Below, piece by piece: positions 3,210-31,547 of a stretch of 35,482 nt of DNA. The notes beneath the pieces are model-generated. The model was not told where the DNA came from, searched no databases, and saw only the letters and a list, made by a program, of their open reading frames with translations. The position numbers and the translations under genes are program-made. The stretch is from Deltaproteobacteria bacterium (GTDB lineage Bacteria; Desulfobacterota; BSN033; UBA1163), in the NCBI GenBank assembly GCA_016874935.1, contig VGSS01000018.1, positions 1 through 35,482 of the forward strand, given 5' to 3'. Positions within the stretch are counted from its first letter, which is position 1. The number at the start of each line of letters is the position of its first letter.

Positions 3210-3286
<77 letters not shown>

Positions 3287-3292
3287 ATAATA

Positions 3293-4594
3293 TTAAGGGG
3301 TTGCGGCACATGCTGTAACCCCTTTTTCTTTGTCCGTTACCATTACGTTACCACTAACTTTTTCAAAGACGAAATCTTCGGACTTTTTTGCTGCTCCTTC
3401 GTGTAACTCAGGCATGAGATGACCGTAAAGGTCGAGGGTAATTTTTATCGAGGAATGACCCATCTGATTTTGAATGTATTTGAGGTTGTGGCTTGCAGCA
3501 ATCAGGATTGAGGCAAAGGTATGTCTCAGATCGTGGATTCGGATTGACCTCAGTTCAGCCTTCTTCAGGATGGCCTTAAAATCCCTGTGATAGAGGTTAT
3601 CCGCATCGAGAGCCGATCCATCGTTCTGACAAAAAACAAGATCGTTATTGCTCCATTCAGACCCCACCTTCAACTTTGTCTCGTTCTGCTTTACTCTGTG
3701 ACCCTTGAGGACCTCCATCAACCGCGGTCCCATGTCAATCGCTCTCTTGGAATATTCGGACTTAGGGGTTTGAAAGGCTCTCTTATAGAGACTCCTTCTG
3801 ACATGGATTTTTGAATTCACCCGGTCAATATCTTCCCATTTCAACCCCAGGAGCTCGCCCCTCCGCATTCCTGTAAATATGGCCGTATAAAAGAAGGCGT
3901 GGATGGTCGTCTCACACTTTGGTTTTTCTTTTTCCTTCTTCTCCGGCCTGACTGATAGTTTTGAAACCTTCTTTTTCGGCTCTTTGTTGCTTTGGGCAGC
4001 TTTCAGGAAGATCGGGATCTCATGTGTTCTAAGATAATCAACATCCGGTTTTTCCCTTCTCGGTTTCTCAATCTTTACATAAGGGTTATGAATGACAATC
4101 CCTTCGACCTGAGCATCGTCAAGGACCTGGTGGAGGACAAGCAGGATATTATGAATCGTTTTGGGAGTAAGCTCTCCTCCCTCCGACTTCTCCTTAACGA
4201 ACCCCTTTATATCCTCTCTCTTAATCTCTGAAATCAAACCGTTCCCGAAGTAGGGGACAAGATGGTTATTTACTATCCCCTGATAAGAAACCCGGGTCGC
4301 TTCCTTCACGCTGAGCTTCCCTTTAAGCCAATTCTCGGCAAACTCCTTGAAGGTCTGATCTTCTCTATTGGGGTTGAACGTCCCATTCTTAATCTGGTTC
4401 ATTTTCTCATGGAGAAGATCCGCAGCGCCCCTCTGGTTTGTTCCGACCGTTTCTATATGCCTTTTCCCAAGACGGTCATAATAGTCGATCACATATTTTT
4501 TAATGTCTTCTCTCCATCTGACAGCGCCAAGCCCTCTCTTCTTTCTTCTGCGTTTCTTTTTTTCCTCGGCGATAACTTGTTCTCCCATACTCAA
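3293..4594 (-). CDS. int: Site-specific tyrosine recombinase (phage-type integrase)
   Basis: Catalytic motifs TGMRRGELLGLKWEDI, HDLRHTFAS, MGHSSIKITLDLYGHL; N-terminal arm-binding and SAM-like regions; abuts the tRNA. Confidence 0.95.
   Translation of the reverse strand: MSMGEQVIAEEKKKRRRKKRGLGAVRWREDIKKYVIDYYDRLGKRHIETVGTNQRGAADLLHEKMNQIKNGTFNPNREDQTFKEFAENWLKGKLSVKEATRVSYQGIVNNHLVPYFGNGLISEIKREDIKGFVKEKSEGGELTPKTIHNILLVLHQVLDDAQVEGIVIHNPYVKIEKPRREKPDVDYLRTHEIPIFLKAAQSNKEPKKKVSKLSVRPEKKEKEKPKCETTIHAFFYTAIFTGMRRGELLGLKWEDIDRVNSKIHVRRSLYKRAFQTPKSEYSKRAIDMGPRLMEVLKGHRVKQNETKLKVGSEWSNNDLVFCQNDGSALDADNLYHRDFKAILKKAELRSIRIHDLRHTFASILIAASHNLKYIQNQMGHSSIKITLDLYGHLMPELHEGAAKKSEDFVFEKVSGNVMVTDKEKGVTACAATP
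3298..3328 (+). terminator. Rho-independent terminator downstream of tRNA-fMet, overlapping the integrase 3' end
   Basis: GGGGTTGCGGC-ACAT-GCTGTAACCCC hairpin followed by TTTTTCTTT. Confidence 0.65.
3335..3353 (+). promoter_or_regulatory. Candidate left integrase arm-type sites: two CGTTACCA repeats spaced 11 bp
   Basis: cCGTTACCAttaCGTTACCAc; same pair with identical spacing at 16225-16243. Confidence 0.6.
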
Positions 4595-6480: not shown

Positions 6481-6637
6481 TGGTCTATCCCCTTCGTTTT
6501 AAGTTAAGTCAATTATACACAAACTACATATTTTGTCAAGCATTTTCTTTGGACTCGATTGGACAGTGCATTTCAAAATAACATTGCGTTGCTTCTGACA
6601 TTTTGATAGACTTCTACTCAAAGGGGAGGTGACGAAA

Positions 6638-6937
6638 ATGAGCGGATTCATTTTTGACAAGGATGGTAATGCGGTTGGCGTTAGATTAGACCCATATATC
6701 TTTGACTTAGAAGGAAACCCAATCGGCCAACTCCTTAATAACTATGTTTTTACTCTATCTGGTAAATACATTGGTGAATTCCATAAAGATATGATCTTAG
6801 ATAAGAACATAAATCCTGGGAATGTAAGTCCTCAAATAAATGTCGGAAAAATCAGGGAATTCCGAAACCCTGGCAATAGAGGCAAAGTGGATTACGGGTA
6901 TCCTGACGTTTTTCACCGACTCCTTGAAACAGATTAG
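6638..6937 (+). CDS. Small repeat protein resembling 4-fold beta-flower domain proteins
   Basis: Internal repeats GFIFDKDGNAVGVRL / PYIFDLEGNPIGQLL / NYVFTLSGKYIGEFH; ATG at 6638 preceded by GGGGAGGTG (track start 6629 is a GTG). Confidence 0.6.
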   Translation: MSGFIFDKDGNAVGVRLDPYIFDLEGNPIGQLLNNYVFTLSGKYIGEFHKDMILDKNINPGNVSPQINVGKIREFRNPGNRGKVDYGYPDVFHRLLETD

Positions 6938-7092
6938 CTTCTCAGCCATTTAATATCCTTCTTCGCAATCCTCCACACCTTCCCCACCTTGTAAGCGGGG
7001 ATAGCTTTGGCCCACAGTCTTCGATAGATCGTCTTTGTATTAACTCCAAAATGGTCAGCAAGCTCATAGACGGTGAAATAGTCCTGTTTCAT
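6934..7092 (-). CDS. Helix-turn-helix / excisionase-family DNA-binding protein
   Basis: MKQDYFTVYELADHFGVNTKTIYRRLWAKAIPAYKVGKVWRIAKKDIKWLRS; internal ATG at 7092 preferred over track start 7134. Confidence 0.8.
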   Translation of the reverse strand: MKQDYFTVYELADHFGVNTKTIYRRLWAKAIPAYKVGKVWRIAKKDIKWLRS

Positions 7093-7410
7093 ATTAAATG
7101 ACATCCTGAAAGTAAGGATTAACAGGTTTTCCAAAATTTGAAGAGTGCTTCCTGTAACTTTCGCTTGACCATTTTATTTAAAAGGCGTAGAGTATAATCG
7201 GAAATCAACAAGATACTAACGTGCAAAAATCTTCTTGGATAATTAATCCTTAAATTAAATAAATTCTATATAATATCGTCCAGGATAATGTTTTCTGGAA
7301 TAAAACATCATCGAAGGGTCCTTTTCAAGAGCCAATGAGAGGTCCAGTCGAGCATTTTCCCACAAAGAATAGAATAAACATAAAAGATAATGTTAGGAGT
7401 AAAATAATAA

Positions 7411-7917
7411 ATGAGAAAAACAGGAAAAGAAATTCTTGATCTTAAAGTACCCGATGATGCCTGCCATACTTGGCTTGCAGAAGCTACACTTGAAGAAGTA
7501 TATGAATTTCTTCGTTGGGCTCCTGCTTTAGGTTCATGGGCCTCACATGGGCGAGATAGGTTAAATGTCTTACTGGCAAACGAAAATATAAAATTACAAA
7601 CTGAAATTAGAGACTTGACAGCAAAAATGAAAAAAATGACACAGTGGGTTATAGGCTTAACTATTGTCATTGCTTTTCTTACCCTTCTGCAAGCGTATTC
7701 TGGCATCAAGACGTTTTATAATGACATCAAATCCCTTAGAGACACTCCAAAGACCGAAAACAATACGAATCAAAAACCCGACACAAATCAACTGAAGAAT
7801 AGTAATAATAAGTCTCTCAATAAAGCTAAAATTATCAATCATAAAGTAAAGAACCTCCTAACAAGGCGCTTCACTGGATTGCCGATAGACCTGGCAACCA
7901 GTGAGTTTAGTAGTTAG
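7411..7917 (+). CDS. Cassette-like ORF 1: hypothetical protein with one TM helix; C-terminus encoded by attC-like site 1
   Basis: 168 aa, opposite strand to flanking element genes; stop TAG falls inside the GTTAGCC box at 7913-7919. Confidence 0.65.
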   Translation: MRKTGKEILDLKVPDDACHTWLAEATLEEVYEFLRWAPALGSWASHGRDRLNVLLANENIKLQTEIRDLTAKMKKMTQWVIGLTIVIAFLTLLQAYSGIKTFYNDIKSLRDTPKTENNTNQKPDTNQLKNSNNKSLNKAKIINHKVKNLLTRRFTGLPIDLATSEFSS

Positions 7918-7919
7918 CC
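7856..7919 (+). repeat. Candidate integron attC site 1
   Basis: tcCTAACaaggcgctTCACTGGaTTGCC-gatagacct-GGCAACCAGTGAgtttagtaGTTAGcc: 12-bp stem with one extrahelical A, unpaired spacers, terminal CTAAC/GTTAG boxes. Confidence 0.78.
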
Positions 7920-7921
7920 AC

Positions 7922-8455
7922 ATGAAAGAACAGATTGTAAAATATCTTTCTGCAACCCCATCCCATTCCCTTGGCGTTAAACGATGGCAAATAATAGTGT
8001 TTGCGATTGTATTATTTACAGCACCTATTATTGTTTCTTACCTTCCAATTGGTTCTAAACTCAGGCAAGAACAAATTGCGGAGCACAAAGCTCAAACCCG
8101 TGTAGAGCTTGAAAGTGCAACTTACTTCGTGAAATCTGAGACTGGGTTGAGTAACGAGGACGCAAAACTTATCGCTTTCTTGATTTTGAAATATTATTGG
8201 AATCTCAACCCTAAAGATTTTAGGCTTATAATGATACAGTTATTGGGTAGCCGTGATCTTACTGCGCCCACTGGAGACCACGAATTGGACAAACCCCTCC
8301 AAGATATAAGACAAGAACTAAAACAATTAGGTATCGAATCAAGAAGGACGAGACTTGTGTTCAAAGTAGATTTCATGTTTAAAGATGATGTTGCAAACGA
8401 CATTTATATTGTTTACCTTCCTACCTTTGAGATAGAAAGGGTAAACATACGATGA
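7922..8455 (+). CDS. Cassette-like ORF 2: hypothetical protein with one N-terminal TM helix
   Basis: ATG 7922 (MKEQIVKYLSATPSHSLGVKRWQIIVFAIVLFTAPIIVSYL...) three nt after attC-like site 1. Confidence 0.65.
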   Translation: MKEQIVKYLSATPSHSLGVKRWQIIVFAIVLFTAPIIVSYLPIGSKLRQEQIAEHKAQTRVELESATYFVKSETGLSNEDAKLIAFLILKYYWNLNPKDFRLIMIQLLGSRDLTAPTGDHELDKPLQDIRQELKQLGIESRRTRLVFKVDFMFKDDVANDIYIVYLPTFEIERVNIR

Positions 8456-8462
8456 AAGGACG

Positions 8463-8537
8463 GGCTAACAACAGCATGAACTCGGACTAGCAATTCCGCT
8501 GTTCTCCATTGCCAGCCGCTTATGCGGAGTGTTAGGT
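8463..8537 (+). repeat. Candidate integron attC site 2
   Basis: ggCTAACaacaGCATgAA..CGGaCTaGCAAT-tccgctgttctcc-ATTGCcAGCCGcTTATGCggagtGTTAGgt: imperfect stem with bulges, CTAAC/GTTAG boxes; 8 nt after ORF 2 stop. Confidence 0.72.
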
Positions 8538-8601
8538 TAGAGTATATGAACCCGTGAAAGAAAACCAAAATCAAGGAAAGATCCTGCATAAGGAGGGTTA
8601 A

Positions 8602-8991
8602 GTGAAAAAAAGGAGAAAAGAAAAGTTTAAAGAGGCTTCCATTTTTTGGAAACCCCTTTACATTTATTTATTAGTAGTTTGCGGCTCAATATGGCTCTTC
8701 TTACTCCTTGGTGACAAAAAAGACCAATTTTATGTTGGGATGATATGTGGTATTTGGATATCAATTATTAGTTGGTGGTTTTATAAGATATACAGTCAAC
8801 CAGAGGATAGAAGATGGGAAAGAATAATTAAACAAGTTGAAGTATTTATGAGACACCTTCAAACAGAGAACGAAAGAGAGGAAATAATAACGATGTTCTG
8901 CAGACTAAAAAAAGAATCTAAAGAAATATCTCGATCCAAGATAGATATAGTGTTAGATGAAATTATAGTATACTATTGGTCAGCAACATAA
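8602..8991 (+). CDS. Cassette-like ORF 3: hypothetical protein with two N-terminal TM helices
   Basis: GTG start preceded by aaggagg; 129 aa; between attC-like sites 2 and 3. Confidence 0.65.
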   Translation: MKKRRKEKFKEASIFWKPLYIYLLVVCGSIWLFLLLGDKKDQFYVGMICGIWISIISWWFYKIYSQPEDRRWERIIKQVEVFMRHLQTENEREEIITMFCRLKKESKEISRSKIDIVLDEIIVYYWSAT

Positions 8992-9057
8992 AGAGATAGA
9001 GTTGCCGGGGTCAAAGCTAAACGATACGCTTCACACGAATAATAAAGAAGGCATTGA

Positions 9058-9120
9058 GCCTAACGAGTCGCTCCACCGGAGCGTCAATAAATCCGGCTCC
9101 CGGTGATGCCTGCGTTATAT
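9058..9120 (+). repeat. Candidate integron attC site 3 (alternative R' box at 9153-9159)
   Basis: GCCTAACGagtcgctcCACCGGAGC-gtcaataaatccg-GCTcCCGGTGatgcctgCGTTAtat: 9-bp stem with one extrahelical C, TAACG/CGTTA boxes. Left arm CCTAACGAGTCGCTCCACCGGA resembles site 1 CCTAACAAGGCGCTTCACTGGA. Confidence 0.75.
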
Positions 9121-9323
9121 TTCCTTTCTTCCCGTAAGCATCAAGGCTGGATGTTAGGTTACTTTACGGATAAGTAGGTATTAGCTTAAAAAAAAGAAAT
9201 CGATATTCAGTTGTCAAAGAACGAAAGCCATTCCAGCTTCGATCGTTAAAAATCCATGTTACCTATGAGGTATAGAATAAACCCTTTGTGGCGTCTTGTA
9301 GCGTCACAGGAGGATGTTGTTTC

Positions 9324-9735: not shown

Positions 9736-11433
9736 TCACTCCACCAGCCCGAACCCTGGAGCAAATACATCGAAGTCCGTCTCTGCGTATTCCGTCCTTC
9801 GGTTGTAGCGGTTAAAGTTTTGAGCCACCGGGATCTTCGATGAGGCAAGGTAAAGGTAATTTAAAGCATGTCTGTAATGATCCTCCCCTAACTTCCTGTA
9901 TCGAAATTCCCTTGAACCTGTTTCAGAATCTTCTTCAAGCACTTTAGCAATGTTTCGACACTGTTGAGCGAAGCGGTCAACCTCTTCACATCTTCGGGGA
10001 AGAATCATTTTCCCAGGTGTTACAAACAACTCATGTGTTGAGTCGCAGACCTCCGTTCGATTCACCCTGAGCATGTTATCCTTTTCATCCCACTGAGGGC
10101 CTTTGGTAATTTTATCTTGATAGTCACAAAGAAAAACCGAATACCTCTCCGCTGCCTGAAACTCCCTGACCTTTCGCATCTCCGGTTCAAGGTCGATGAC
10201 AGCGGATTGAACGTTGAGCCTCTTGGCAATATCGTGAACATCATCGAAACTCGATACCCTGGCCAAATAACAAACCTGCAAGACACCTTCTTTAGGTTTA
10301 AACCCGACTACGACGTGAAGCGTTGCGCCCACATCGACCCCCATAGCGCAGGGACCTATCTCCTTCGGTGACATCACATCCTGACCACAACAAGAATAAA
10401 TATCGGAGATAGAAAGCCGGTTTTCTGCTGCGACGTAAGCCATGCCTAACTTGCTGTTGTAAACTTCTGTGATATTTCCATTCGGGGGATCATTAAATGC
10501 CTTCAGAATGGCCCCAGGCTCCACGTAAACAGAGTTTAATTGGCTGATCCACCATCCCACCATGTCTTTTGACCTCTCAGGATACTGAGCAATCCATCGG
10601 CCATTTCTGGGAAAGATTTCTTTCTTACACTTCTTACAGGCCCGGATGACTCCTTTAGGGGTATCAAGAAGACATTCCGGGAACTCCAACTCCAGGCATG
10701 TTTCATGGCCACAATGCTCACAGCGAATCATCCAGACTCTTTGATCTGAATTCTGATAGAGTTTATCTATGCCATAGTCGGGAATGCTGGGCGTCGAGAG
10801 TGAAGCCTCTTCTTTAATTTCTGAATGACTCATTCGTTCCCTTGCTAAGTCCACCATCGAAGGTTCCATCTCGTCGATCTCGTCATAGACGACCCGATCA
10901 ACCGGGACTCCTTTTAGCTGAGAGGAACTCTTTTTTATTCCCTCAATTCGACTTGTGCTCCGGGCTCCCCTGAGATATAAGAAGGCTCGCTGAACTCTTT
11001 TGATAGCCACGGCATCGGTATCCTGAACATGGAGAGCCACCTCTTTGGGGTTATCCCGAATTAAAGTTTGGAAACGACCTTTGCTGAAATCGCTCACATC
11101 AAGAGCCGTTGGAAATAGATAGAGAACTCCCTGGGGATATTTTGAGAAAATAAGGCCGTGCATGGATTTTATGACATTGATCTCGGTGACCCCCATCTGT
11201 GCGCCTTTCTTGTAGCACTGCCTCGGAGAATCACAGGTGAGCAGATCGAGTTCATACTCATGGCCTTCGAACTTAAACGGACGCCCTCCAACCTGAAGCT
11301 TCCGAACCCAGTCCAGAATATCGACCCTGCTCCTGCTGGCAGAAAAACCCAGGCCGTCAGCCTTCGCTAACAAGCCGTCTAAGAGATTTTCCTCCCCGGA
11401 GTTTCGCAATGATTTCTTGGCGGGCATCTTCAT
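9736..11433 (-). CDS. terL: Phage terminase large subunit (GpA-like)
   Basis: PRQCYKKGAQMGVTE (deviant P-loop), DRVVYDEIDEMEPSMVDLARERMSHS (Walker B), CEHCGH...CKKCKKEIFPRNGRWI zinc ribbon, MGVDVGATLHVVV nuclease region. MKMPAKKS start at 11433 preferred over track start 11520. Confidence 0.88.
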   Translation of the reverse strand: MKMPAKKSLRNSGEENLLDGLLAKADGLGFSASRSRVDILDWVRKLQVGGRPFKFEGHEYELDLLTCDSPRQCYKKGAQMGVTEINVIKSMHGLIFSKYPQGVLYLFPTALDVSDFSKGRFQTLIRDNPKEVALHVQDTDAVAIKRVQRAFLYLRGARSTSRIEGIKKSSSQLKGVPVDRVVYDEIDEMEPSMVDLARERMSHSEIKEEASLSTPSIPDYGIDKLYQNSDQRVWMIRCEHCGHETCLELEFPECLLDTPKGVIRACKKCKKEIFPRNGRWIAQYPERSKDMVGWWISQLNSVYVEPGAILKAFNDPPNGNITEVYNSKLGMAYVAAENRLSISDIYSCCGQDVMSPKEIGPCAMGVDVGATLHVVVGFKPKEGVLQVCYLARVSSFDDVHDIAKRLNVQSAVIDLEPEMRKVREFQAAERYSVFLCDYQDKITKGPQWDEKDNMLRVNRTEVCDSTHELFVTPGKMILPRRCEEVDRFAQQCRNIAKVLEEDSETGSREFRYRKLGEDHYRHALNYLYLASSKIPVAQNFNRYNRRTEYAETDFDVFAPGFGLVE

Positions 11434-11851
11434 CCACCTCCCCAATCGTTTCCAAAACGAAATTTTGAAATTTAAGTACCTCTTCGAACCCAAACCTTTT
11501 CTCATCGATGAGAAGAGCAAGCTCTAACTGCTTCCTTCCTTCGGACAGATACTTCAACCTTTGGAAATTCAACCCCTGACGGGTATCTGATGTAATATCC
11601 TGTTTTTTAATTTCGGAATTTAAAGTCTTGATCTCTTCAAAAACAGGACTCATCAACCGCTTGAGGCGTTGCAGTCCCTCGAAGTTTGATATTTGCTTTG
11701 GGCTTGCTTTGGCTGGCAAGTTCCTTTTCCGCTGAACAAAGAACGATACGGCTTGTTTGGAGAACCCCAGTATCCGGCCAACCTCGGACTGACTCTTTCC
11801 CTCGGCTAATAGCTTATCTACCTGTTCCGCTGGCAACCTGTGTTTAAACAA
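11357..11851 (-). CDS. terS: Terminase small subunit-like HTH protein
   Basis: N-terminal HTH (VDKLLAEGKSQSEVGRILGFSKQAVSFFVQRKR) and helical remainder, directly upstream of and overlapping terL. Confidence 0.7.
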   Translation of the reverse strand: MFKHRLPAEQVDKLLAEGKSQSEVGRILGFSKQAVSFFVQRKRNLPAKASPKQISNFEGLQRLKRLMSPVFEEIKTLNSEIKKQDITSDTRQGLNFQRLKYLSEGRKQLELALLIDEKRFGFEEVLKFQNFVLETIGEVDEDARQEIIAKLRGGKSLRRLVSEG

Positions 11852-12309
11852 TTCATACCTCCCACATCCTGCAAGTCTTTTAAATGCCCGCTATCTATTT
11901 TTCTCACCTCCTTCCATATCAATTTACCTACCTGAAGCATCCCCACACCTTGAAAAGCTAAAATTTGAAATATATGCCGGAGTAGCCCCCTGTATCTGCG
12001 CCAGCTTTGAAAGAGGGGGGGTGCCCTTCCGAACCCCCCGCCCCCCTTCCGTTGCTCGATGTCTAAACCTTGCACCCCCCATCCTGTGCCACCTGTCGCC
12101 TCTCTCTGTGTCTCAACATTACCCCCATCCCATTCTCAAGATACCCCCTTAAACGTCACAAACCCTCTCCCTCTGCTTACAACCCTTAAACAACCTTTAC
12201 CTGATAATCTTGATTAACTTTTAGGTGTAATACCCAAAGGTCAATCCAATGATTTCAATTAGTTATTAAACTCCGTTACCATCCACGTAGCCAATAACAC
12301 TTAAACACT

Positions 12310-12486
12310 TCATTTTTTGCGATGCCCTTCAATCCATTTATCAATATCATCTTTCTTAAAACGAAGATGCTTCCCAAACCTGAAAGCCCCAGGGATCGGA
12401 TCGATACTTCCCTTCCGGGTGTGCTCATAAATGAATGAGCGGGGTACACAGAGCATTTCTGAAAGCTGACCAACCGTTAGAAACAT
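12310..12486 (-). CDS. AlpA/excisionase-like HTH protein, 58 aa, absent from supplied ORF track
   Basis: Manual translation: MFLTVGQLSEMLCVPRSFIYEHTRKGSIDPIPGAFRFGKHLRFKKDDIDKWIEGHRKK*. Confidence 0.8.
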   Translation of the reverse strand: MFLTVGQLSEMLCVPRSFIYEHTRKGSIDPIPGAFRFGKHLRFKKDDIDKWIEGHRKK

Positions 12487-12578
12487 CCTTCACCTACAAG
12501 TTCGACATTTTTATCGAGATTGTAGACTTGCCTGAGAGTTTTGTTGCCATTTTTCACCAATTTCAACCTCCAAAAAAA

Positions 12579-12737
12579 GTTTACCACCTCGTAAACTCGA
12601 TTTAGTAAACTATTGGTAAACTTTGGTAAACTGTGTTTTGAATTATTTAATGATATAAATGGCTTAAGTGGTTTACCAGTTTTATGACCGTAAGAGTTTA
12701 CTACTACCCCTATAAGGGGTAGTAAACTCGGTAAACT
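12579..12737. repeat. Iteron-like cluster of GTAAAC/GTTTAC motifs with a near-palindrome
   Basis: Motif at about 12579, 12591, 12605, 12616, 12626, 12671, 12696, 12722 and 12731; GAGTTTACTACTACCCCTATAAGGGGTAGTAAACTC at 12694-12729. Confidence 0.75.
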
Positions 12738-12750
12738 GCTCTTTTTGAGA

Positions 12751-14658
12751 TTAAAATTCATCCTCATCCTCTTGGTCGAAAAAGGAGCTGACAAAGCATA
12801 AACCCTCCTTCGTCAAATTTCCTTTGGTTGTTAGGTAACCGTCTTTTGTTGCCTTTGTCTTCACCTTACTCACGAACCCTTTGGTTATACCCAAAGAGTT
12901 TGCTATCTCGTTTTGGGCGATTCCTTCGTTGAGCATTTTCAATATTTCGATTTGGTTTTTCCTCCGGACTGGTGCCCAAGCCCATTCGTTTCGGCCATTT
13001 GAATTCATGAGTTTAAATTCATGGTCTTGCAGGAGACTCATTTCCTTTGTGGCGATCCTATTTTTCTTGAACTTAACTATGAACCGACATCCGTCCTCAA
13101 TTTGGTAGTCTTGCGGTTTTGACAGAGATATGCTCATATCGATATTATCTTCCCGTGCGGATGTGCCCCTCTGTCCTCCGGTCCTGTTTTCGTGATGCAG
13201 GAGCGCAACAGAAATGCCTGAAAATCTTAGGTCTATCAGAAACTGGTTGATAGGGTCCCAATCTTTCTTGGAATTCTCATCGAGTCCAGGGGCCAGGGAG
13301 GCGATATTGTCGAACGCCACTAATTTAATTCCGTTATCGAGAATCAGGTTTTTAATGTCGGTTCTCCATCCCCTGTTATTTAAATTCGCCCTGGGAAGCC
13401 CCAGTAAATTGGCCTGTGCATCGCTGTAAATCATTAGGGGTGCTCTGCGGGGTGTATTTTTTCCTGCCGCTAAAATTCTGATCCTTTCTTGCATATCATA
13501 AAGAGCCATCTCGCCATCGATATAAAGGCAAGAAAGAGAAGATTCATTTCGCCATGGTCCAATACCTTCCCCTCTGGTGATTGCGTCAAAGCATGAAATT
13601 GTGAACATGGTTTTTCCCACGCCACGCCATCCATAAATTAAGACAATTTGTTGAAGATAGAGCCATGGGGCAAGGATCATTTCTCTGGGGGGAATTGGGA
13701 GAGTGAGTAATTTATCAGCATCTAAAAGAGCCGAAGAATAACGATCCTCTCTTTTTAGGAATTGACTTAATGGAGCATCGCCAGAAATCTTCTTTCGTGC
13801 ATCGGCCCATGTCTTGTTCTGGCAATGATGGTGGAAGCATTGATAACCGAGCTTCCCGCTTGTGTCCTGAATAATTGCAGAGTCCCCTTGATTATCTTTT
13901 GTGGTATGCCCTTCAGAAAAAAGACACTTGGAAAGGCCATAAATGGTTCGGGTTTCCTCCCTTTTTTCTTTAAACCCGATGTTGTGAGCAATCAGGTATT
14001 TTGGAACGTCTAAACTTCCATCCGGAATCTGACTCATCTTGGATGAATCAATTTTAGGCTCCTCAATGATTCCTTCGGCCAAGGAAAGAATATTTTCTGA
14101 TTTCGTCCGATGAATTTTTGAGAGGTGTCCCCACTGATCGGGATAGGTCTTGAACTCCGAATCAACAAAGACCGTCCTGTCCTGCTTAACCGAAACTCCC
14201 TGAAGCGGTGCGAAAACATAATTCCCGACTCCGTCCTGCGAAGATAAAGCATCTTGTTTGGGGAATATCTCTACGTCCTTGGCTTCCGCTAAAACATTGG
14301 ATAAGACCTTCCGCACAATCTTTGCTGAAACCGGCTCATCAAAAAAAGACCAGATGTGATAGCCCCTTGATCTCGACCGTTCGACATAGGGATAAAAATT
14401 ATTTTCAATCAAAATGGCTTGAATCATGTTCACTAATTCCCGGTCTTCTTGGTCAATATCAACACAGCACCAGCTCACGGTTGAATCCAATCGAAGGGGA
14501 TATGTGCCAACCCTGGTTTTGCCTTCGATGTGTTCTTGAATAACAGAGTCATTCAACTCCTTCTTCACAGAAACAGGCCCTTTGGGTGTTTCGACACCAT
14601 ACCTATCCAAACGACCTGAAAATAAGGATTTGAAAATTTCAATTTGCAAAATACTCAC
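12751..14658 (-). CDS. Replication protein: N-terminal AEP-type primase, zinc-binding-like middle, RepA/AAA_25-like ATPase, C-terminal HTH
   Basis: CCVDIDQED and SRSRGYHIWSFFDEP (AEP-like); CLFSEGHTTKD...YQCFHHHCQNKTW; Walker A GWRGVGKT; LVAFDNIASLAPG; LLHHENRTGGQRGTSARED; C-terminal HTH NEIANSLGITKGFVSKVKTK. GTG at 14658 preferred over track start 14721. Confidence 0.82.
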   Translation of the reverse strand: MSILQIEIFKSLFSGRLDRYGVETPKGPVSVKKELNDSVIQEHIEGKTRVGTYPLRLDSTVSWCCVDIDQEDRELVNMIQAILIENNFYPYVERSRSRGYHIWSFFDEPVSAKIVRKVLSNVLAEAKDVEIFPKQDALSSQDGVGNYVFAPLQGVSVKQDRTVFVDSEFKTYPDQWGHLSKIHRTKSENILSLAEGIIEEPKIDSSKMSQIPDGSLDVPKYLIAHNIGFKEKREETRTIYGLSKCLFSEGHTTKDNQGDSAIIQDTSGKLGYQCFHHHCQNKTWADARKKISGDAPLSQFLKREDRYSSALLDADKLLTLPIPPREMILAPWLYLQQIVLIYGWRGVGKTMFTISCFDAITRGEGIGPWRNESSLSCLYIDGEMALYDMQERIRILAAGKNTPRRAPLMIYSDAQANLLGLPRANLNNRGWRTDIKNLILDNGIKLVAFDNIASLAPGLDENSKKDWDPINQFLIDLRFSGISVALLHHENRTGGQRGTSAREDNIDMSISLSKPQDYQIEDGCRFIVKFKKNRIATKEMSLLQDHEFKLMNSNGRNEWAWAPVRRKNQIEILKMLNEGIAQNEIANSLGITKGFVSKVKTKATKDGYLTTKGNLTKEGLCFVSSFFDQEDEDEF

Positions 14659-14887
14659 TTCCAATCCTTTCTTTATCTGCCTGCTCCTCCCGGAGTTTAT
14701 ACTCAATCCACGCCCGCTCAAAGGCGTTTATAGCTCCATCGCATGCCCCAACGTTTGATAGATAAGTTCTCCACTTTTTGATACTATTATTCTTTGGACT
14801 TTCAGCATCTGCTTTAACATCCCTGGCAAAATCTCCAACCGGGTCATTCTGATTTGTCTGTTTCCGTAACCAGTTATGAAACTTCAT
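14639..14887 (-). CDS. YozE SAM-like-fold family small protein
   Basis: FHNWLRKQTNQNDPVGDFARDVKADAESP...YLSNVGACDGAINAFERAWIEY matches the remembered family pattern. Confidence 0.6.
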   Translation of the reverse strand: MKFHNWLRKQTNQNDPVGDFARDVKADAESPKNNSIKKWRTYLSNVGACDGAINAFERAWIEYKLREEQADKERIGSEYFAN

Positions 14888-16363: not shown

Positions 16364-16410
16364 GGCTCATAACCCGAAGGTCGCTAGTTCAAATCTAGCC
16401 CCCGCTACCA
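16364..16410 (+). pseudogene. Displaced 3' part of tRNA-fMet = right att copy
   Basis: ggctcataacccgaaggtcgCtagttcaaatctaGcccccgctacca; no proper D-arm or 5' anticodon stem strand. Confidence 0.88.
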
Positions 16411-17722: not shown

Positions 17723-18655
17723 ATGGCGGTTCATATGAAAGGGAAGTCGCTGGCCAGCTTGAAGGACTTGACAAGGGAGGAAATCGAGCAGATTCTGAAG
17801 ACATCGGAGTTGTTGAAACTTCAACTCATCCGTGGACAGGAACATCCTGTGCTAAAAGGAAAGACCCTGGCCATGATCTTTGAGAAGCCTTCCACACGAA
17901 CCCGGGTCTCTTTCGAAGTAGGGATGTGGCAATTGGGCGGCTATGCGCTCTATCTGAGCGCCACCGATTTACAATTGGGTCGGGGAGAGACCATTGCCGA
18001 TACAGCCCGGACCCTGTCTCGATATGTGAACGGGATTATGGCAAGGGTCTTTGCTCACCAGACCATTCTCGACCTGATCAAGTATTCGAAAGTGCCTGTC
18101 ATCAACGGACTTTCAGATTACACCCATCCCTGTCAGGGATTGGCTGATCTTTTTACCATATATGAGAAGAAAGGGCGGCTCGAGGGATTGAAGCTGGCAT
18201 ACGTGGGTGATGGAAATAATGTTGCTCACTCCCTTCTCTTTGGTTGCTCCAAGGTCGGAATGGATATTATTCTTGCCTGTCCGAAGGGGTATGAACCTCA
18301 CCCGGAAGTCGTATCTCTAACCAAGAAGGAGGCAATGAGAAACGGGTCGGAGGTAGCAGTCATTCGCGACCCGAAAGAAGCAGTAAAGGGAGCAGACATC
18401 ATCTATACCGATGTCTGGGCGAGCATGGGAAAAGAGAAGGAGCATGCAGAGAGGGTGAAGATTTTAAAACCCTATCAAGTCAATTCCAGATTGGTTAAGG
18501 GAGCCAAAGGAGATTACATCTTTATGCACTGCCTGCCAGCCCATCGGGGAGAAGAGGTGACGGACGAGGTGGCCGATTCAAAGAACAGCGTCGTCTTCGA
18601 TCAGGCCGAAAATCGGCTCCATACTCAGAAGGCATTGATGGCGCTGATTATGTAA
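17723..18655 (+). CDS. argF: Ornithine carbamoyltransferase
   Basis: [44 protein letters not shown]. Confidence 0.92.
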
Positions 18656-18727
18656 GTGAAAGGGTCCAAGGGGTCTAGGATTCAAGTGGTCAAGGAAATG
18701 AAAGGATAACCCCTTTAAGGAGTGACC

Positions 18728-20083
18728 ATGGAAGATAAGTTTGATATTGTTATTCGGGGAGGACTCGTTGTTTCCGGTTCAGGACTCCGCAGGGCTGATG
18801 TGGGGATCAGAGGAGAAAAGATCATATCTGTCAAACCTGGATTGAAGAAAGAAAGGGCGAATCGAATTATTGATGCCTCAGGCAAATATGTGATGCCAGG
18901 TGTGATCGATGTTCATGTCCATCCTGTCTATGAGGATGATATGGGAGACCTCTCCCTGACTGCGGCCTACGGTGGCGTGACAACCCTCATCCATTTCGCC
19001 TATGCAAAACCTGGAATGAAATTGATCGACACGATCAAACAATATCAGGAGGAAGGCTCAAAAAAATCCTATCTCGATTTTGGGATTCATGGGACCTTGT
19101 TCGATCCGGCCTCTCAAATCGAAGAGATTCCCAAGGCCTTCGAACTCGGCGTCTCTTCATTTAAGATGTTCATGGCCTATGCCAAACTGAAATGGATGAC
19201 CGATGATTATCACCTCGCCGCCGCCATGGACGTGATCGCAGAATGTGGCGGCATGGCCATGGTCCACGCAGAGAATGGTCTGGTGACGGACTATCTGGAG
19301 GACCGGTCTTTGCAGAGGGGAGAAGATCAGAAGGTAGTTTTTCTTAAAACGAGGCCTGATTATCTGGAGGCAGAAGCGATTTTCAGGGCGATATCCATTG
19401 CAGCGGTCACTCACTGCCCCCTTTACATCGTCCATCTGAGTACGGCGAAGGGCGTGCTTCCTCTTCAGCAGGCAAGGGCAGAGAGGCAGACCGTCTATGT
19501 TGAGACCTGCCCCCAATACCTGGCGATGACCGATGCCAAACTACATAAGTTAGGACCCCTGGCAAAGATTGGCCCCCCTCTCCGGACAGAAAAGGATCGT
19601 CTCGCCCTCTGGGCGGCTATTCAGAAAGGGATCGTAGATACCGTGGCAAGCGATCATGCTCCAAAGGCGAAGAAGATAAACGATCCTTTTTTTGAATCTC
19701 CCTATGGTTCTCCTCAGACTGAGACAATGTTCACCGTCACTTACGATGAAGGTGTCAATAAAGGAAGAATTAAATTACCCCGGTGCGTCCAACTTTTTTC
19801 GGAGAATCCTGCTAAAATCTTTGGTCTCTACCCGAAGAAGGGAACGATTCAAAAGGGAGCGGATGCAGATCTTATTCTCTTTGATCCGAAACAGGTCCAT
19901 ACGATCCAGCATCAAACCCAGCACTCCAGAGCTCCTTACACACTTTATCAAGGAAAGAGATGCAAAGGGAAACTGGTCCTTGTCATGCAGAGAGGAAAGA
20001 TTGTCGTCGAAAACGGAGAGATGAAAGGAAAACCCGGTGCAGGGGAGTTTCTATCCACAAAAATCAAAAAAGTAATACTCTGA
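18728..20083 (+). CDS. Dihydropyrimidinase/D-hydantoinase-like amidohydrolase
   Basis: DVHVHP, FKMFMAYAK (carbamylated Lys position), VHAENG, YIVHLSTA, VASDHAPK. Dihydroorotase or allantoinase activity cannot be excluded. Confidence 0.85.
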   Translation: MEDKFDIVIRGGLVVSGSGLRRADVGIRGEKIISVKPGLKKERANRIIDASGKYVMPGVIDVHVHPVYEDDMGDLSLTAAYGGVTTLIHFAYAKPGMKLIDTIKQYQEEGSKKSYLDFGIHGTLFDPASQIEEIPKAFELGVSSFKMFMAYAKLKWMTDDYHLAAAMDVIAECGGMAMVHAENGLVTDYLEDRSLQRGEDQKVVFLKTRPDYLEAEAIFRAISIAAVTHCPLYIVHLSTAKGVLPLQQARAERQTVYVETCPQYLAMTDAKLHKLGPLAKIGPPLRTEKDRLALWAAIQKGIVDTVASDHAPKAKKINDPFFESPYGSPQTETMFTVTYDEGVNKGRIKLPRCVQLFSENPAKIFGLYPKKGTIQKGADADLILFDPKQVHTIQHQTQHSRAPYTLYQGKRCKGKLVLVMQRGKIVVENGEMKGKPGAGEFLSTKIKKVIL

Positions 20084-20202
20084 AAATTAAAATGCCAGAC
20101 GAGAACGTTCAAATAATTAGATCATGCCAGACGAAGGAATAAGATTCTGAAACGAGTTCAGAATGACATTCTTGTCATGCCGAACTTGTTTCGGCATCTC
20201 GA

Positions 20203-21168
20203 TTGACCTTGTTATTTTTCAATCCGGAGGTGAAAGACATGCCTATTCTCAAAGGAAAAGATATTCTCCACGGGAATCAGTTTACGAAGAAAGATGTTGA
20301 AACGATTCTAAAGGTGGCTTCAGAGTTTGAAAGAGAACTGAAGAAGAAAGATACCCTTCCTCTGTTAAAAGGCAAGATCCTGGCGACACTCTTTTATGAA
20401 CCGAGCACCCGAACCCGACTCTCTTTTGAGGCTGCCATTCAGAGACTGGGGGGGGGAGCCATCGGCATGGGAGCTGTTGAAAGCTCATCTGTGGCAAAGG
20501 GCGAGACTCTGGTCGATACCATCAGGACCGTTTCTCAATATGCCGATGTGATTGTGCTTCGCCATCCACGCACCGGATCGGCAAAAGAAGCAGCGGAGGC
20601 AACCTCCATCCCCGTGATCAATGCCGGAGATGGCGCAGGTCAGCATCCCACTCAGGCACTTCTTGATGTCTATACCATCCGTCAGGAACTGGGGACCCTG
20701 AAGAATTTGACAATTTCATTGGTTGGCGACCTAAAAAACGGAAGAACGGTCCATGCCCTGGTTGAGGTTTTGTCCCTTTTTCAGTCGAAACTCTATTTCG
20801 TCTCCCCAGATCTCCTTCGAATGCCGGAGGAAATCACTTCAAATTTAAGAGGAAAGGGAGTGAAGATCGTTGAAACAGAGGACATGATGGAGGCCGCCCG
20901 TGCAAGCCATCTCATCTATATGACCAGAATCCAGAAGGAGAGGTTCGCTGACCTCTCGGAATATGAGAAGGTGAAGGGCAGCTTTATCATTGATCAGACA
21001 TTCCTCGAAAAATTGAACAAAAAAGTTACCATCCTTCATCCCCTGCCAAGGGTGGATGAGATTCACCCTGATGTGGATGCCTATCCCGGAGCCGCCTACT
21101 TCCGGCAAATGAGAAACGGCATCTTTATAAGAATGGCCCTGCTCGCCATGATCTTCGGGAAGAGATGA
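20203..21168 (+). CDS. pyrB: Aspartate carbamoyltransferase catalytic chain
   Basis: EPSTRTRLSFEAA, GDGAGQHPTQALLDVYTI, YMTRIQKERF, HPLPRVDEI. ATG at 20239 (MPILKGKDIL) is also a possible start. Confidence 0.9.
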   Translation: MTLLFFNPEVKDMPILKGKDILHGNQFTKKDVETILKVASEFERELKKKDTLPLLKGKILATLFYEPSTRTRLSFEAAIQRLGGGAIGMGAVESSSVAKGETLVDTIRTVSQYADVIVLRHPRTGSAKEAAEATSIPVINAGDGAGQHPTQALLDVYTIRQELGTLKNLTISLVGDLKNGRTVHALVEVLSLFQSKLYFVSPDLLRMPEEITSNLRGKGVKIVETEDMMEAARASHLIYMTRIQKERFADLSEYEKVKGSFIIDQTFLEKLNKKVTILHPLPRVDEIHPDVDAYPGAAYFRQMRNGIFIRMALLAMIFGKR

Positions 21169-21432
21169 AAACAGAATTGCAATAAACGAATTCCCTCCCC
21201 AAATTGTAAAGGAATGGAAGCATGCCCACCTCCCTTTTAATTGCATTAAGGATAACCAATCTCCCTTCATCAGGAAACCTCTAATCCTTTCAAATTGATC
21301 GTTTGCATCCCGTATCAAGCGTACGAATCAACTCCAGCCATATCCCGCTGATATGAATACCGGCAGAGGCGAGATTAGCCAAATAGAAATATTTATTCAA
21401 AAGTGATCTTGACAAAAGAAAACGAGTGTGAT

Positions 21433-22290
21433 ATGAATTGTCGTATTTTAAAAATTAGTTTTCAAAATATGACAATGGCGATTAATCAATCTTTGGCGCA
21501 CGGACTCGATATCCTCCTTCTTTACGATACATCTTATTCCCCTCTTACTGTTTTTGAAATTTCTAAAAGGCTCCATTACAGTCAAAGCAAAACCTACCGC
21601 CTGGTCAGGACTTTGGTAAAATATGGCTTTCTCCAGGAAAACAACGGCACCTCTCAATACGGCCTTGGTTTAAATGCCCTTCGAATCGGTCTTCTGGCCC
21701 AGAAACGATTTAATGTTTCAGAAATCGCTCGACCCTTTATGAAGGAGCTATCTCACATGACAAAAGAAACCGTACTTTTAACAGCCATCAACGGGACGAA
21801 AGGGTTTGTCCTTGACAGGGTGGAGAGTGACGAGCCCATCCGGTATTCCTTGTTTCAACCTGGAGCAAGTATTCCCTTACATGCCGGTGCATCGAGCAAA
21901 ATTTTAATGGCCTATCTGCCAGAGAAGGAATGGGATCGGATTATCAAGGCTGAAGGTTTAACTCGTTATACACAGAACACCATTACACAAGCTGATAAAC
22001 TTAAAACACATTTAAGGGAAGTTCGCAAAAAGGGATATGCCTTCAGCGACCAGGAAGTGGATAGGGAGGTCAGATCCATTGCCGCTCCGATTATCAATGG
22101 GACGGGCGAGCTTGTTGGAGGGCTGAGTGTTGCGGGCCCGGCTTATAGAATTAAAAAAAAGAAGATTCATTCTTGTGCAAAGCAAATCATCCAATATGCC
22201 CAAAAGATTTCATCTCATCTGGATTGTTTTTCTAACACAGCCGTTCGAAACTGGAAGGATAAAAAATCAACTCTGTCTAAAAAGGATTAA
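21433..22290 (+). CDS. IclR-family transcriptional regulator
   Basis: N-terminal HTH (SPLTVFEISKRLHYSQSKTYRLVRTLVKYGFL) and C-terminal domain (IPLHAGASSKILMAYL, GYAFSDQEVDREVRSIAAPI). Confidence 0.88.
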   Translation: MNCRILKISFQNMTMAINQSLAHGLDILLLYDTSYSPLTVFEISKRLHYSQSKTYRLVRTLVKYGFLQENNGTSQYGLGLNALRIGLLAQKRFNVSEIARPFMKELSHMTKETVLLTAINGTKGFVLDRVESDEPIRYSLFQPGASIPLHAGASSKILMAYLPEKEWDRIIKAEGLTRYTQNTITQADKLKTHLREVRKKGYAFSDQEVDREVRSIAAPIINGTGELVGGLSVAGPAYRIKKKKIHSCAKQIIQYAQKISSHLDCFSNTAVRNWKDKKSTLSKKD

Positions 22291-22320
22291 ATAGAGTCTG
22301 TTTATAAATGCACTTTTTAT

Positions 22321-22395
22321 GTCATGCCGGACTTGATCTGGCATCCAGAAGGTTTTGAAATTACTGGATTCCGGCCTTCGCCGGAATGACGACCT
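22321..22395 (+). repeat. Dispersed intergenic repeat (gtcatgccggacttg...ctggattccggccttcgccggaatgacg)
   Basis: Contains the inverted repeat TTCCGGCcttcGCCGGAA of a common bacterial intergenic repeat family. Confidence 0.6.
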
Positions 22396-22447
22396 TTTGA
22401 AAAATCTTGAGTTTATGGACAGACCCTAAATAACTGATGATTCACAA

Positions 22448-23986
22448 ATGAACCGATCCCCCCTTCTCACATTACGAAGCATGACCAAGTCATTTCCGGG
22501 TGTCCTGGCCAATGATCATGTGGATCTGGATATCTACGGCGGCGAAGTCCATGCCCTTCTTGGAGAAAACGGCGCTGGCAAAAGCACACTCATGAAGATT
22601 CTTTATGGTTTTTACCGTCCGGACTCCGGAGAGATCCGTCTCAATGGTCAACCCGTCCATATCCGATCCCCTCATGATGCGCGGCAGTTTCGTATTGGAA
22701 TGGTCTTTCAAGACTTCGTACAGATTCCTGCCATGACGGTTGCCGAGAATATCACCCTCTTTCTTCCAGATTTGCCATTTGTCCTGAATCAGGCTTCGAT
22801 CATCAAGCGGATTGAGGAAGTTTCCGAACGCTACGGTTTTAAGGTGAACCCACACGCTCCGGTTTGGCGGCTCTCGGTTGGGGAGCGCCAAAAAGTGGAA
22901 GTCCTCAAGCTCCTTCTCGCCGATGCCAGGATTTTGATTTTCGATGAGCCGACAAGAAGCCTGGCTCCCCACGAAGTCGATGGGCTCTTCCAGGTTTTCG
23001 CCAACCTGAAGCGCGACGGATATGCCCTGGCTTTTATTACACACAAAATGAAGGAAGTCTTAGCCTGTGCCGACCGGATCACGGTGATGCGCCGTGGCAA
23101 AGTAGCCGGCACGATTAAAGGCTCGGAAGCCACAGAAAGCAGCCTAATTGAACTCATGTTTGGTAAACAGATCGAAGAGGCTTTAGGCCGGAGGGGCGAA
23201 ACACCAGCGGACGGAAGAAAACCTCTCCTTGAATTGAAAGGGGTAAACACCCGATCCGAAGGAATGGCTTGGGGGCTTAAGGATGTCCATCTGATCATTA
23301 AACCCGGAGAAATCGTTGGCGTTGCAGGAGTTTCGGGCAACGGACAGAAAGAATTAGGCGATGTCGTTTTAGGGCTTGAGAAATGCACTAAAGGGGTCAA
23401 ATACCTGCATGGAGAGAAATATACGGATTGGTCAGTGGCACAGGTCCGCGAAAGCGGGGTGGCCTTCATCCCCGAGGATCCCCTGGGCATGGCCGCTTTT
23501 CCCTGGCTGAGCGTTCAGGAAAATATGGCGATGGTCAACACCCGGATGTATTCAAAGCAAGGTGGCCTTTCCATGGACTGGCAGGCTGTTCGTTCCGATT
23601 TGCAGGCATCTCTTGAGCGATTGGAGTTCAATATCCCTCCTTTTTATGTTCCATTAGGGTTCCTCTCAGGAGGGAACATTCAACGGATGATTCTGGCACG
23701 GGAGATGGCTCACCATCCAAAATTGATCATTGCCTTCTACCCAACCCGTGGCCTCGATGTGCAAAGCGCCAATTCCGCAAGAAGAATTCTGTCAACTTCC
23801 CGGGACCAGGGAGCCGGCATCCTCCTTATTTCAGAGGACCTGGGCGAGCTGTTTAACCTAAGCGACCGGCTGGTGGTTATGTTTCAGGGAAGGATTGTTG
23901 GTGAAAGCACCCCTCAGGAAATCAGCATGAATGAGGTAGGCTACCTGATGACCGGTTCAAAAGGAGAAAATAAAAAGAGTGATTAA
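22448..23986 (+). CDS. ABC transporter ATP-binding protein, duplicated ATPase (nucleoside/BMP-type system)
   Basis: Two ABC halves: GENGAGKSTLMKILYG, LSVGERQKVEVLKLLL; GVSGNGQKELGDVVLG, LSGGNIQRMILARE. Confidence 0.9.
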   Translation: MNRSPLLTLRSMTKSFPGVLANDHVDLDIYGGEVHALLGENGAGKSTLMKILYGFYRPDSGEIRLNGQPVHIRSPHDARQFRIGMVFQDFVQIPAMTVAENITLFLPDLPFVLNQASIIKRIEEVSERYGFKVNPHAPVWRLSVGERQKVEVLKLLLADARILIFDEPTRSLAPHEVDGLFQVFANLKRDGYALAFITHKMKEVLACADRITVMRRGKVAGTIKGSEATESSLIELMFGKQIEEALGRRGETPADGRKPLLELKGVNTRSEGMAWGLKDVHLIIKPGEIVGVAGVSGNGQKELGDVVLGLEKCTKGVKYLHGEKYTDWSVAQVRESGVAFIPEDPLGMAAFPWLSVQENMAMVNTRMYSKQGGLSMDWQAVRSDLQASLERLEFNIPPFYVPLGFLSGGNIQRMILAREMAHHPKLIIAFYPTRGLDVQSANSARRILSTSRDQGAGILLISEDLGELFNLSDRLVVMFQGRIVGESTPQEISMNEVGYLMTGSKGENKKSD

Positions 23987-25022
23987 GGCTATTTCAGAGA
24001 TGGCATTTTTTCGTAATAGACGGATGGCCGGCTTGATTCGTTTTGTCGGACTTTTCGCCTTAGCCCTGATGATCTTTGCTGCTGTCTTACTCGTGTTTGG
24101 GAAAAATCCCATACGTGCCTATTGGGATATATTTTCAGCCACACTGGGCAGCTCCTATGGTATTTCGGAAGTCCTGGTCAGAATGATTCCATTGATTCTG
24201 ACGGCCCTGGCTGTGGCTTTACCATCGAGGATCTGGCTCATCAACGTAGGCGGCGAAGGTCAGCTTTTCATCGGAGCCTTATTTGCCACCTGGGGAGCTG
24301 TCAATTTCACAAACCTGCCGGCCTGGCTCCTTCTTCCATCGATTGGAATTCTGGGATTTCTCGGTGGAGGGCTATGGGGCGCCATCTCCGGATTTATGAG
24401 GGTCAGAGGTTGGGCCAGTGAAACGATCTCCACCCTGCTTATGAACTATGTCGCCATTCTACTGGTAAATTTTTTCGTCTTCGGTCCCTGGAAAGATCCG
24501 GAGAGCGCAAATTATCCGCAGAGCGCTCCGTTTCCAGATGCCGCCATTCTGCCTTCTTTCTTTGGAACACGGATCCACCTTGGGGCTGTTCTCGCTATTG
24601 TCGGACTCATCCTTTTTTATTTTGTCCTGTCAAGGACGCGCTGGGGTTTGGAAATGCGAGCGATTGGGGTGAATCAGGAAGCCGCCCGGCGAAACGGGAT
24701 ATCCACCAGCCGGTATATCATTCTTCTCATGTTAATAGGCGGCGGCATGGCCGGGCTTGCCGGCATGGGTGAGGTTTCGGCTATTCACGGACAGCTCCGG
24801 CCAAGTCTCTCACCGGGTTTAGGGTACACTGGCTTTCTGATCAGTTGGATGGCCGGCGGCCATCCCATAGGTATCGTGGCTGCAGCTTTTCTGCTTTCTG
24901 TCATTACGTCTGGCGGAGATATTCTTCAGATGACCCACAGGATTCCGGCCGCAGGAGTTCACATCCTGATGGCCTTGATCTTATTCGTGGTTCTTGCCAG
25001 ACGGGGCGGCAAACCCCGTTAG
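23979..25022 (+). CDS. ABC transporter permease (BPD_transp_2-like, nucleoside-type)
   Basis: Multiple TMs; NVGGEGQLFIGALFATW; GLEMRAIGVNQEAARRNGIS. Confidence 0.88.
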   Translation: MIKAISEMAFFRNRRMAGLIRFVGLFALALMIFAAVLLVFGKNPIRAYWDIFSATLGSSYGISEVLVRMIPLILTALAVALPSRIWLINVGGEGQLFIGALFATWGAVNFTNLPAWLLLPSIGILGFLGGGLWGAISGFMRVRGWASETISTLLMNYVAILLVNFFVFGPWKDPESANYPQSAPFPDAAILPSFFGTRIHLGAVLAIVGLILFYFVLSRTRWGLEMRAIGVNQEAARRNGISTSRYIILLMLIGGGMAGLAGMGEVSAIHGQLRPSLSPGLGYTGFLISWMAGGHPIGIVAAAFLLSVITSGGDILQMTHRIPAAGVHILMALILFVVLARRGGKPR

Positions 25023-25088
25023 GAAGTCTTCAACTTTCCAATGGGATGCCATAAGCAAGGTGTTCTGACAAGTTAAAGCGGGGGAAAA

Positions 25089-26006
25089 ATGATTGGACCA
25101 TTTTTAATCAGCATCTTCTCAGGAGCAATTCATTCCGGAACGCCTCTGCTCTATGCCACCCTTTCCGAGGCTGTCGGGGAAAGGACCGGCATTGTCAATC
25201 TCGGACTCGAGGGCGTCATGCTCATAGGAGCGGTCGTGGGTTTTACGACGACCGTCCAGACCGGCAATCCTTTCTTAGGTGTTTTGGCTGCCGCTCTGGC
25301 CGGTGGTTTATTTAACATGGTATTTGGGTTTCTGGTAATTACCCGTCGTGCCAATCAATTAGCCAGCGGCCTTGCCCTCATGTTTTGCGGCGTAGGCTTA
25401 AGCGCCATGATCGGCGCCTCTTTAATCGGAAGCCGAATCGAGGGTCTTAATGAGATTCAGATCCCTTTGCTCTCTGGTATCCCGGTCATCGGCCGAATGT
25501 TTTTTAATTATGATATTCTTGTGTACTCAGCGATCCCAGTGGCTGTGCTGGTATGGTGGTTGATGTTTCGAACACGCTGGGGATTGAGTCTTCGGGCTAT
25601 TGGGGAAAACCCTACAGCGGCTTTTGCAGCCGGTAAAAATCCCCATAGGCTCCAATACCAGGCCTTATTTATTGCAGGCATCCTCGGTGGCATTGCAGGT
25701 GCCCACCTCTCATTAGCCATAGCCAAAACCTGGGCTGAATGGATGACTGCTGGACGAGGTTTCGTTGCCGTTGCCCTGGTCATTTTTTCTAAATGGCATC
25801 CTATCCGGGCAATTGCTGGTTCCCTGCTCTTTGGAGGGGCAATCTCCCTGCAGTTGCAGATGCAAGCCCGGGGCGTGCCGGTTTCGTCTTTTCTGCTGGA
25901 CATGCTCCCTTATGTGTTGAGCCTGGTGGTTCTTGCTATCTGGAGCGGCGCCCGCCGTCATGCAGCACCGGGGAGTTTGGGCAGGGTTTTCCAAGGTACG
26001 GAATAG
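25089..26006 (+). CDS. ABC transporter permease (BPD_transp_2-like, nucleoside-type)
   Basis: PLLYATLSEAVGERTGIVNLGLEGVMLIGA; GLSLRAIGENPTAAFAAG. Confidence 0.88.
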   Translation: MIGPFLISIFSGAIHSGTPLLYATLSEAVGERTGIVNLGLEGVMLIGAVVGFTTTVQTGNPFLGVLAAALAGGLFNMVFGFLVITRRANQLASGLALMFCGVGLSAMIGASLIGSRIEGLNEIQIPLLSGIPVIGRMFFNYDILVYSAIPVAVLVWWLMFRTRWGLSLRAIGENPTAAFAAGKNPHRLQYQALFIAGILGGIAGAHLSLAIAKTWAEWMTAGRGFVAVALVIFSKWHPIRAIAGSLLFGGAISLQLQMQARGVPVSSFLLDMLPYVLSLVVLAIWSGARRHAAPGSLGRVFQGTE

Positions 26007-26042
26007 GACCAATACTTAAACAAACCAAAGGAGGAAAGAAAA

Positions 26043-27143: not shown

Positions 27144-27147
27144 ATTG

Positions 27148-28125: not shown

Positions 28126-28172
28126 AGAAGAACTAAAGAAAATTTAAACCTAAACGAAAGATATTTGAAATT

Positions 28173-28221
28173 CCCCTCACCCCCTCCCTCTCCCCTGCGG
28201 GGAGAGGGGAAGGGTGAGGGG
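28173..28221. repeat. Intergenic inverted repeat CCCCTCACCC...CTCTCCCC-TGC-GGGGAGAG...GGGTGAGGGG
   Basis: Read directly; known-type dispersed palindromic repeat, upstream of the DUF1116 gene. Confidence 0.75.
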
Positions 28222-28245
28222 CCAACGAATAGATTGGAGAAGATC

Positions 28246-31046: not shown

Positions 31047-31056
31047 GGAGAGCTCT

Positions 31057-31230
31057 ATGAACGATAGATTAAAGGACCTCTTGCAGAAAGGACCGGTAGC
31101 CATCAATATCGGAGTCCTCGACTTTGCCGAAAGTTTAAAGAATCAGGATTCAGAGGTGATCCATCTGAATTGGACTCCACCTGCCGGCGGCGACCCTGAA
31201 CTCATCGCCCTCCTCGATCAGTTATTGTAG
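31057..31230 (+). CDS. Small FdrA-associated protein, 57 aa, absent from supplied ORF track
   Basis: Manual translation: MNDRLKDLLQKGPVAINIGVLDFAESLKNQDSEVIHLNWTPPAGGDPELIALLDQLL*; AAGGAG upstream; 10 nt after FdrA stop. Confidence 0.75.
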   Translation: MNDRLKDLLQKGPVAINIGVLDFAESLKNQDSEVIHLNWTPPAGGDPELIALLDQLL

Positions 31231-31340
31231 GACGTTCCATTTTCCTGGTTCCCAGAAGAGGCCCAATAGACATTCGGCTGGTTCTGAAATTGAAGTCCAT
31301 TTATCTGGTGCTTTAAACTATTACAAACGAAATAATTATG

Positions 31341-31424
31341 GTAACAGTCATTGCGAGCCCTAAGGGCGCGGCAATCTTGTCTTTGCTGTGAATTGCTTCG
31401 TCGCTTTACTTCTCACAATGACAT
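31341..31424. repeat. Dispersed intergenic repeat (GTCATTGCGAGCC...GGCAATCTTG...GAATTGCTTCGTCG...CACAATGAC)
   Basis: Inverted ends GTCATTG/CAATGAC; recognisable widespread repeat type. Confidence 0.6.
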
Positions 31425-31547
31425 GCGTTTTATGTCGTTTAAACTATTTCGGTGATGAGGCCTGGGATTTAACTCGAAAGAGGTTTTCGGGGTTTAATCA
31501 CCTCCTGATTAATCATTGCAATGTCATTCTCTCTATGAGGGTATTTC

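Follow-up and report, generated by a model that had tools for sequence, protein, structure and literature searches.

The window analysed here, a stretch of DNA of 35,482 nucleotides, carries a short run of integron-like gene cassettes inside an element bounded by copies of a tRNA-Met 3′ part. The features concerned are listed below.

3210–3286, + strand: tRNA-Met (ARAGORN); its 3′ part, 3240–3286, is the left attachment site
3293–4594, − strand: phage-type tyrosine integrase (Phage_integrase, E 4e-23)
6934–7104, − strand: Xis-like HTH_17 protein, 56 aa, directly left of the leader (HTH_17, E 3.6e-10)
7148–7392, + strand: attI leader of the Group II type, 245 bp
7368–7396, + strand: attI core, with the crossover between 7392 and 7393
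7393–7913, + strand: cassette 1, 521 bp, ORF 7411–7917
7856–7919, + strand: attC 1
7914–8531, + strand: cassette 2, 618 bp, ORF 7922–8455
8463–8537, + strand: attC 2
8532–9114, + strand: cassette 3, 583 bp, ORF 8602–8991, product 2TM-like (Pfam 2TM, below its cut-off)
9058–9120, + strand: attC 3
9115–9183, + strand: conserved segment after the last attC
9736–11520, − strand: terminase large subunit, GpA type (PHROG 675, E 5.7e-95)
12751–14721, − strand: primase-helicase, AEP-TOTE and AAA_25 (E 1.3e-40 and 4.7e-22)
16364–16410, + strand: right attachment site, a repeat of the tRNA-Met 3′ part (repeat comparison)

The two repeats of the tRNA-Met 3′ part enclose 13.1 kb containing the array, and in sister species of the same genus (G006:C227 and G007:C126) the site is empty, a single intact tRNA-Met lying directly between the genes of the left and right flanks, which bears out the suggestion of an earlier note on this DNA that the array is nested in a tRNA-integrated element. 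The element also encodes a repressor-like HTH protein, and among its scanned ORFs no capsid, portal or tail family was recognised. Judged by its genes it is satellite-like, though it could also be a decayed prophage. With PICI-like phage satellites it shares an integrase beside a tRNA attachment site, Xis-like and repressor-like HTH proteins, a primase-helicase, a packaging gene and a size of about 13 kb, while differing from them in carrying a terminase large subunit. Left of the array, the element also holds a + strand ORF (6629–6937) encoding a 4-fold beta flower domain (Pfam Bflower, E 8e-13). To the right of the element, the region 17723–32495 looks by eye like a nucleobase/ureide breakdown cluster (carbamoyltransferases, amidohydrolase, ABC transporter and carbamate kinase).

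As the earlier note had described, three consecutive + strand ORFs are accompanied by three palindromes with recognisable boxes: TCCTAAC (7856–7862) and GTTAGCC (7913–7919) in attC 1, GGCTAAC (8463–8469) and GTTAGGT (8531–8537) in attC 2, and GCCTAAC (9058–9064) and GTTATAT (9114–9120) in attC 3. The array has one ORF per attC in a single direction, its units joined between G and TT at the R′ boxes (7913, 8531 and 9114). AAC and GTT cores are present at all three sites; departures from the consensus tested (RYYYAAC ... GTTRRRY) fall in the outer boxes of sites 1 and 3 and in R′′ of site 2, and attC 3 is missing part of its L-box pairing. We scored the sites with two covariance models seeded with other genomes’ sites only (10 short-type and 6 long-type, zero window sequence), the pairing being written as R box, L box, stem with bulged bases, and loop. 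Model R1 matched attC 1 at 7855–7920 (56.5 bits, E 3.8e-14) and attC 3 at 9057–9121 (56.5 bits, E 3.9e-14), and model R2 matched attC 2 at 8460–8539 (75 bits, E 2e-18), E-values that are not fully independent since the seed sites were chosen by BLAST likeness to sites 2 and 3. Low covariance scores had been named beforehand as evidence against attC sites; the scores are high at all three. Beyond these, the + strand of the 35-kb window gave no model match above noise.

The structure recurs across the bacterial family, where attC sites are present in 15 of 17 genomes. Over 48 family sites, 13 of the 17 stem pairs show compensatory changes on both sides, and 91.9% of pairing cells are paired against 77.8% after shuffling (0/500 shuffles as high), while slid structures pair at just 24–42%. 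The site families of the array also lie between unrelated ORFs in many contigs, including contigs with genuine IntI genes (G006:C174, G006:C271 and G002:C36). On sequence grounds the three palindromes are confirmed as integron attC sites, that is, imperfect palindromes with R and L boxes and a bulged stem whose structure is kept more than its sequence. That they are terminators or another mobile repeat family is highly improbable: although the folding energies of sites 2 and 3 are only slightly better than those of shuffles (z −1.2 and −1.6, weak values beside −3.0 for site 1), the stems covary, the sites are separated by unrelated ORFs and have their junctions at GTT, the same families occur alongside IntI, and a terminator scan does not report the palindromes.

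A longer site 3 ending at GTTAGGT (9153–9159) was considered and dropped, the relatives placing R′ at 9114–9120 and 9115–9183 being a separate conserved segment. The same genome holds further scattered attC-like sites (G000:C36:22700, C17:10365, C91:3163, C109:9804 and C14:253). For known attC relatives, blastn against plasmids was uninformative, viral contigs held no match to the exact attI and attC patterns, and an Rfam search at gathering thresholds recovered the tRNA alone.

None of the three cassette products could be assigned to a confident family, that of cassette 2 has no relative among 99 genomes, and neither the cassettes nor their neighbours matched defence families. Environmental cassettes usually encode small orphan products. 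The segment that follows the last attC is 88% identical to one that follows a different attC in G002:C9 (81751–81819) and is matched twice more (G002:C1:123169–123203 and G016:C7:6189–6223); it could be an array-end sequence.

The left boundary of the array holds more than had been supposed. GTTAGGA at 7392–7398 had been read as the left edge of the first cassette; the box is indeed there, but it is the crossover of a conserved 245-bp attI leader. The array is therefore attI-headed, an integron platform minus intI, and the earlier note’s idea that its cassettes might spread independently of an integron platform falls away. The attI is a conserved, non-palindromic site that ends in GTT at the first cassette and is common to intI-adjacent sites: the 29-base core, 7368–7396, matches sites in G008:C44 and G009:C158 that precede the intI frames by about 150 and about 290 bp, and the core pattern has 11 matches in 26 genomes (reversed pattern, 0). 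A stretch of 250 bp that runs just beyond the crossover has an 85% match on a second contig of this genome (G000:C28), and its final 160 bp match at 91% in another genus (G015:C114, at a contig end). Since the chromosomal flank gene finds no match better than 65% in G015, the leader appears to have moved. The second copy in the same genome (L059, G000:C28:5205–5450) lies downstream of a dehydratase-like gene, and no attC was detected after it. No convincing sigma-70 promoter was found in the leader, its promoter-like match being not above shuffles. A conserved leader fold, suggested by a short inverted repeat that seemed to covary, was dropped when RNAalifold gave no structure, and the leader loci yielded no credible RNA.

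Two leader types occur in the family. Group I has a TTGACA-17-TATAAT promoter beside attI and an adjoining IntI in 2 of 6 cases; Group II, to which the window belongs, has a 245-bp body unlike that of Group I. The Group II body pattern was found at 11 loci in nine genomes, all within the family, and in 0 of 181 other genomes (one match for the reversed control); the attI end is kept at 10 of these loci, G007:C49 matching in the body alone. The final Group II set comprises 11 loci in eight genomes, G006:C138 having been added from the attI search. Searching with family IntIs by tblastn revealed no intI closer than about 1.5 kb to any of them. Because some leader contigs end near the array, this absence can be taken as certain only for loci with both flanks, of which the window is one. 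Clear attC matches follow five Group II leaders and weak ones a sixth. Leader homology runs out at the crossover on one side; on the other it ends, in the most similar pairs, at about −244. The first cassettes differ between leaders 85–91% identical, which speaks against the refuting case named in the earlier note, that all related elements carry the same three ORFs with eroded, non-palindromic spacers.

Group II leaders lie beside varied upstream neighbours (DNA ligase-like, helicase, transporter-like and dehydratase-like genes, and the xis-like gene in the window). One of them (L067, G006:C286) has directly upstream a primase/helicase-like gene at 10711–13197, related to the AEP-TOTE primase of the element. 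Such unrelated surroundings would also be expected if leader and array had entered the element as one small block, for example by means of a transposase or through a rare IntI event at the left edge of the leader, and not by growing cassette by cassette. The related viral contig L127 (terminase 75% identical) fits this as well, its terminase and xis-like gene lying about 0.8 kb apart with no array, against a gap of 2.6 kb in the window, as does the conserved segment that closes the array both here and in G002:C9. Yet we noticed neither a transposase nor a flanking repeat at the edges and identified no conserved end sequence at −244, and we regard a block move as rather unlikely. In a second related viral contig, L128 (terminase 69% identical), an attC (E 4e-13) whose R′ box is damaged lies downstream of the terminase at the contig end. 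Together with the leader 91% identical in another genus, this makes it plausible, as far as sequence can suggest, that the element moves cassettes between cells.

As for the integrase, the earlier note was right that the window holds only a phage-type enzyme: the best score against the IntI model TIGR02249 is 30.8 bits, for the integrase at 3293–4594, against a cut-off of 265. With three attC sites, where the definition asks for at least two, and no integron integrase nearby, the array is a CALIN; no intI adjoins its attI as in a complete integron. The host genome assembly holds no intact IntI above the family cut-off; being 91% complete, it could be missing one. IntI above the cut-off is present in 6 of 9 congeners. 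The host does keep a 42-residue C-terminal IntI remnant (L060, G000:C45:8904–9029), 52–67% identical to family IntIs and lying near a REP-type transposase gene. An IntI-model match at C62:17843 was rejected, as it seems to belong to the end of a XerD-type gene. Family IntI frames (L055, L051, L046, L054, L075 and L076) run to about 415–448 codons stop to stop, against about 346 in L029, and thus have an extended N-terminal part.

It is possible, though we lean against it, that the array is a dead remnant of a once-complete integron, located inside the element or close to it, whose intI was lost and whose attI and cassettes no longer recombine. CALINs are commonly viewed as degraded integrons (PMC9024848), the host’s own IntI is a fragment, and the off-consensus R′ boxes and the incomplete L-box pairing of attC 3 could be read as decay. 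The attC stems, however, covary and pair well, closely similar leaders are followed by different first cassettes, and the leader has one precise left edge, at about −244, in many contexts with no trace of intI beside it, a pattern that repeated independent losses of intI would not easily produce. The simplest mechanism for leaders that lack intI and yet carry varying cassettes would be an IntI acting in trans.

We favour, with good confidence, the reading that this is an attI-headed cassette array without an integron integrase of its own, presumably loaded in trans and lying in a 13.1-kb, tRNA-Met-integrated, phage-satellite-like element. The leader at 7148–7392 provides the docking site and is followed by three cassettes with their attC sites in one direction. 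An IntI from elsewhere in the cell, or from an earlier host, would have inserted the cassettes by way of folded attC bottom strands, and might be shuffling them still. Their expression would come from the leader or from upstream transcription, and the phage-type functions of the element would take the entire array from cell to cell.

Published work has already described integrons and CALINs in phages and demonstrated IntI1 activity on phage attC sites; one prophage CALIN comes with an attI of its own (2023, PMC9892861). Like that CALIN, the window array is an attC cluster with no intI beside it, its carrier is phage-related, and the attI at its head matches an intI-adjacent attI. It differs in its carrier, which is 13 kb, satellite-like, without recognised structural genes and without a complete integron inside, and in its leader, a separate 245-bp module found repeatedly, and without intI, across the family. 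CALINs are a standard IntegronFinder class, overcounted in draft genomes through contig splitting, and attI outside class 1 is poorly described (PMC9024848). The window array is like them in its two or more attC sites with no nearby integron integrase, and unlike them in being headed by an attI, which published screens skip outside class 1. With the family’s complete sedentary chromosomal integrons (G008:C44 and G009:C158) it shares the attI core, whereas those have IntI 150–290 bp from attI and the other leader, with its TTGACA-17-TATAAT promoter. As far as our literature searches go, both the satellite-like carrier and the family-wide, intI-less attI leader are new.

More tentatively, and with more doubt than conviction, the family may possess a distributed integron, in which a compact intI-less attI leader sits at many chromosomal places and in a satellite-like element, a trans-acting IntI loads cassettes at several of these sites, and host-assembled cassettes travel from cell to cell aboard the satellite. 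Arrays that lack intI generally pass for degraded integrons, and cataloguing them usually involves no search for attI. That one conserved intI-less attI leader heads arrays at many places in this family, and in an integrated element, makes the idea of live platforms served in trans directly testable, and an attI-headed array on such an element would offer a concrete route for cassette arrays to cross genera.
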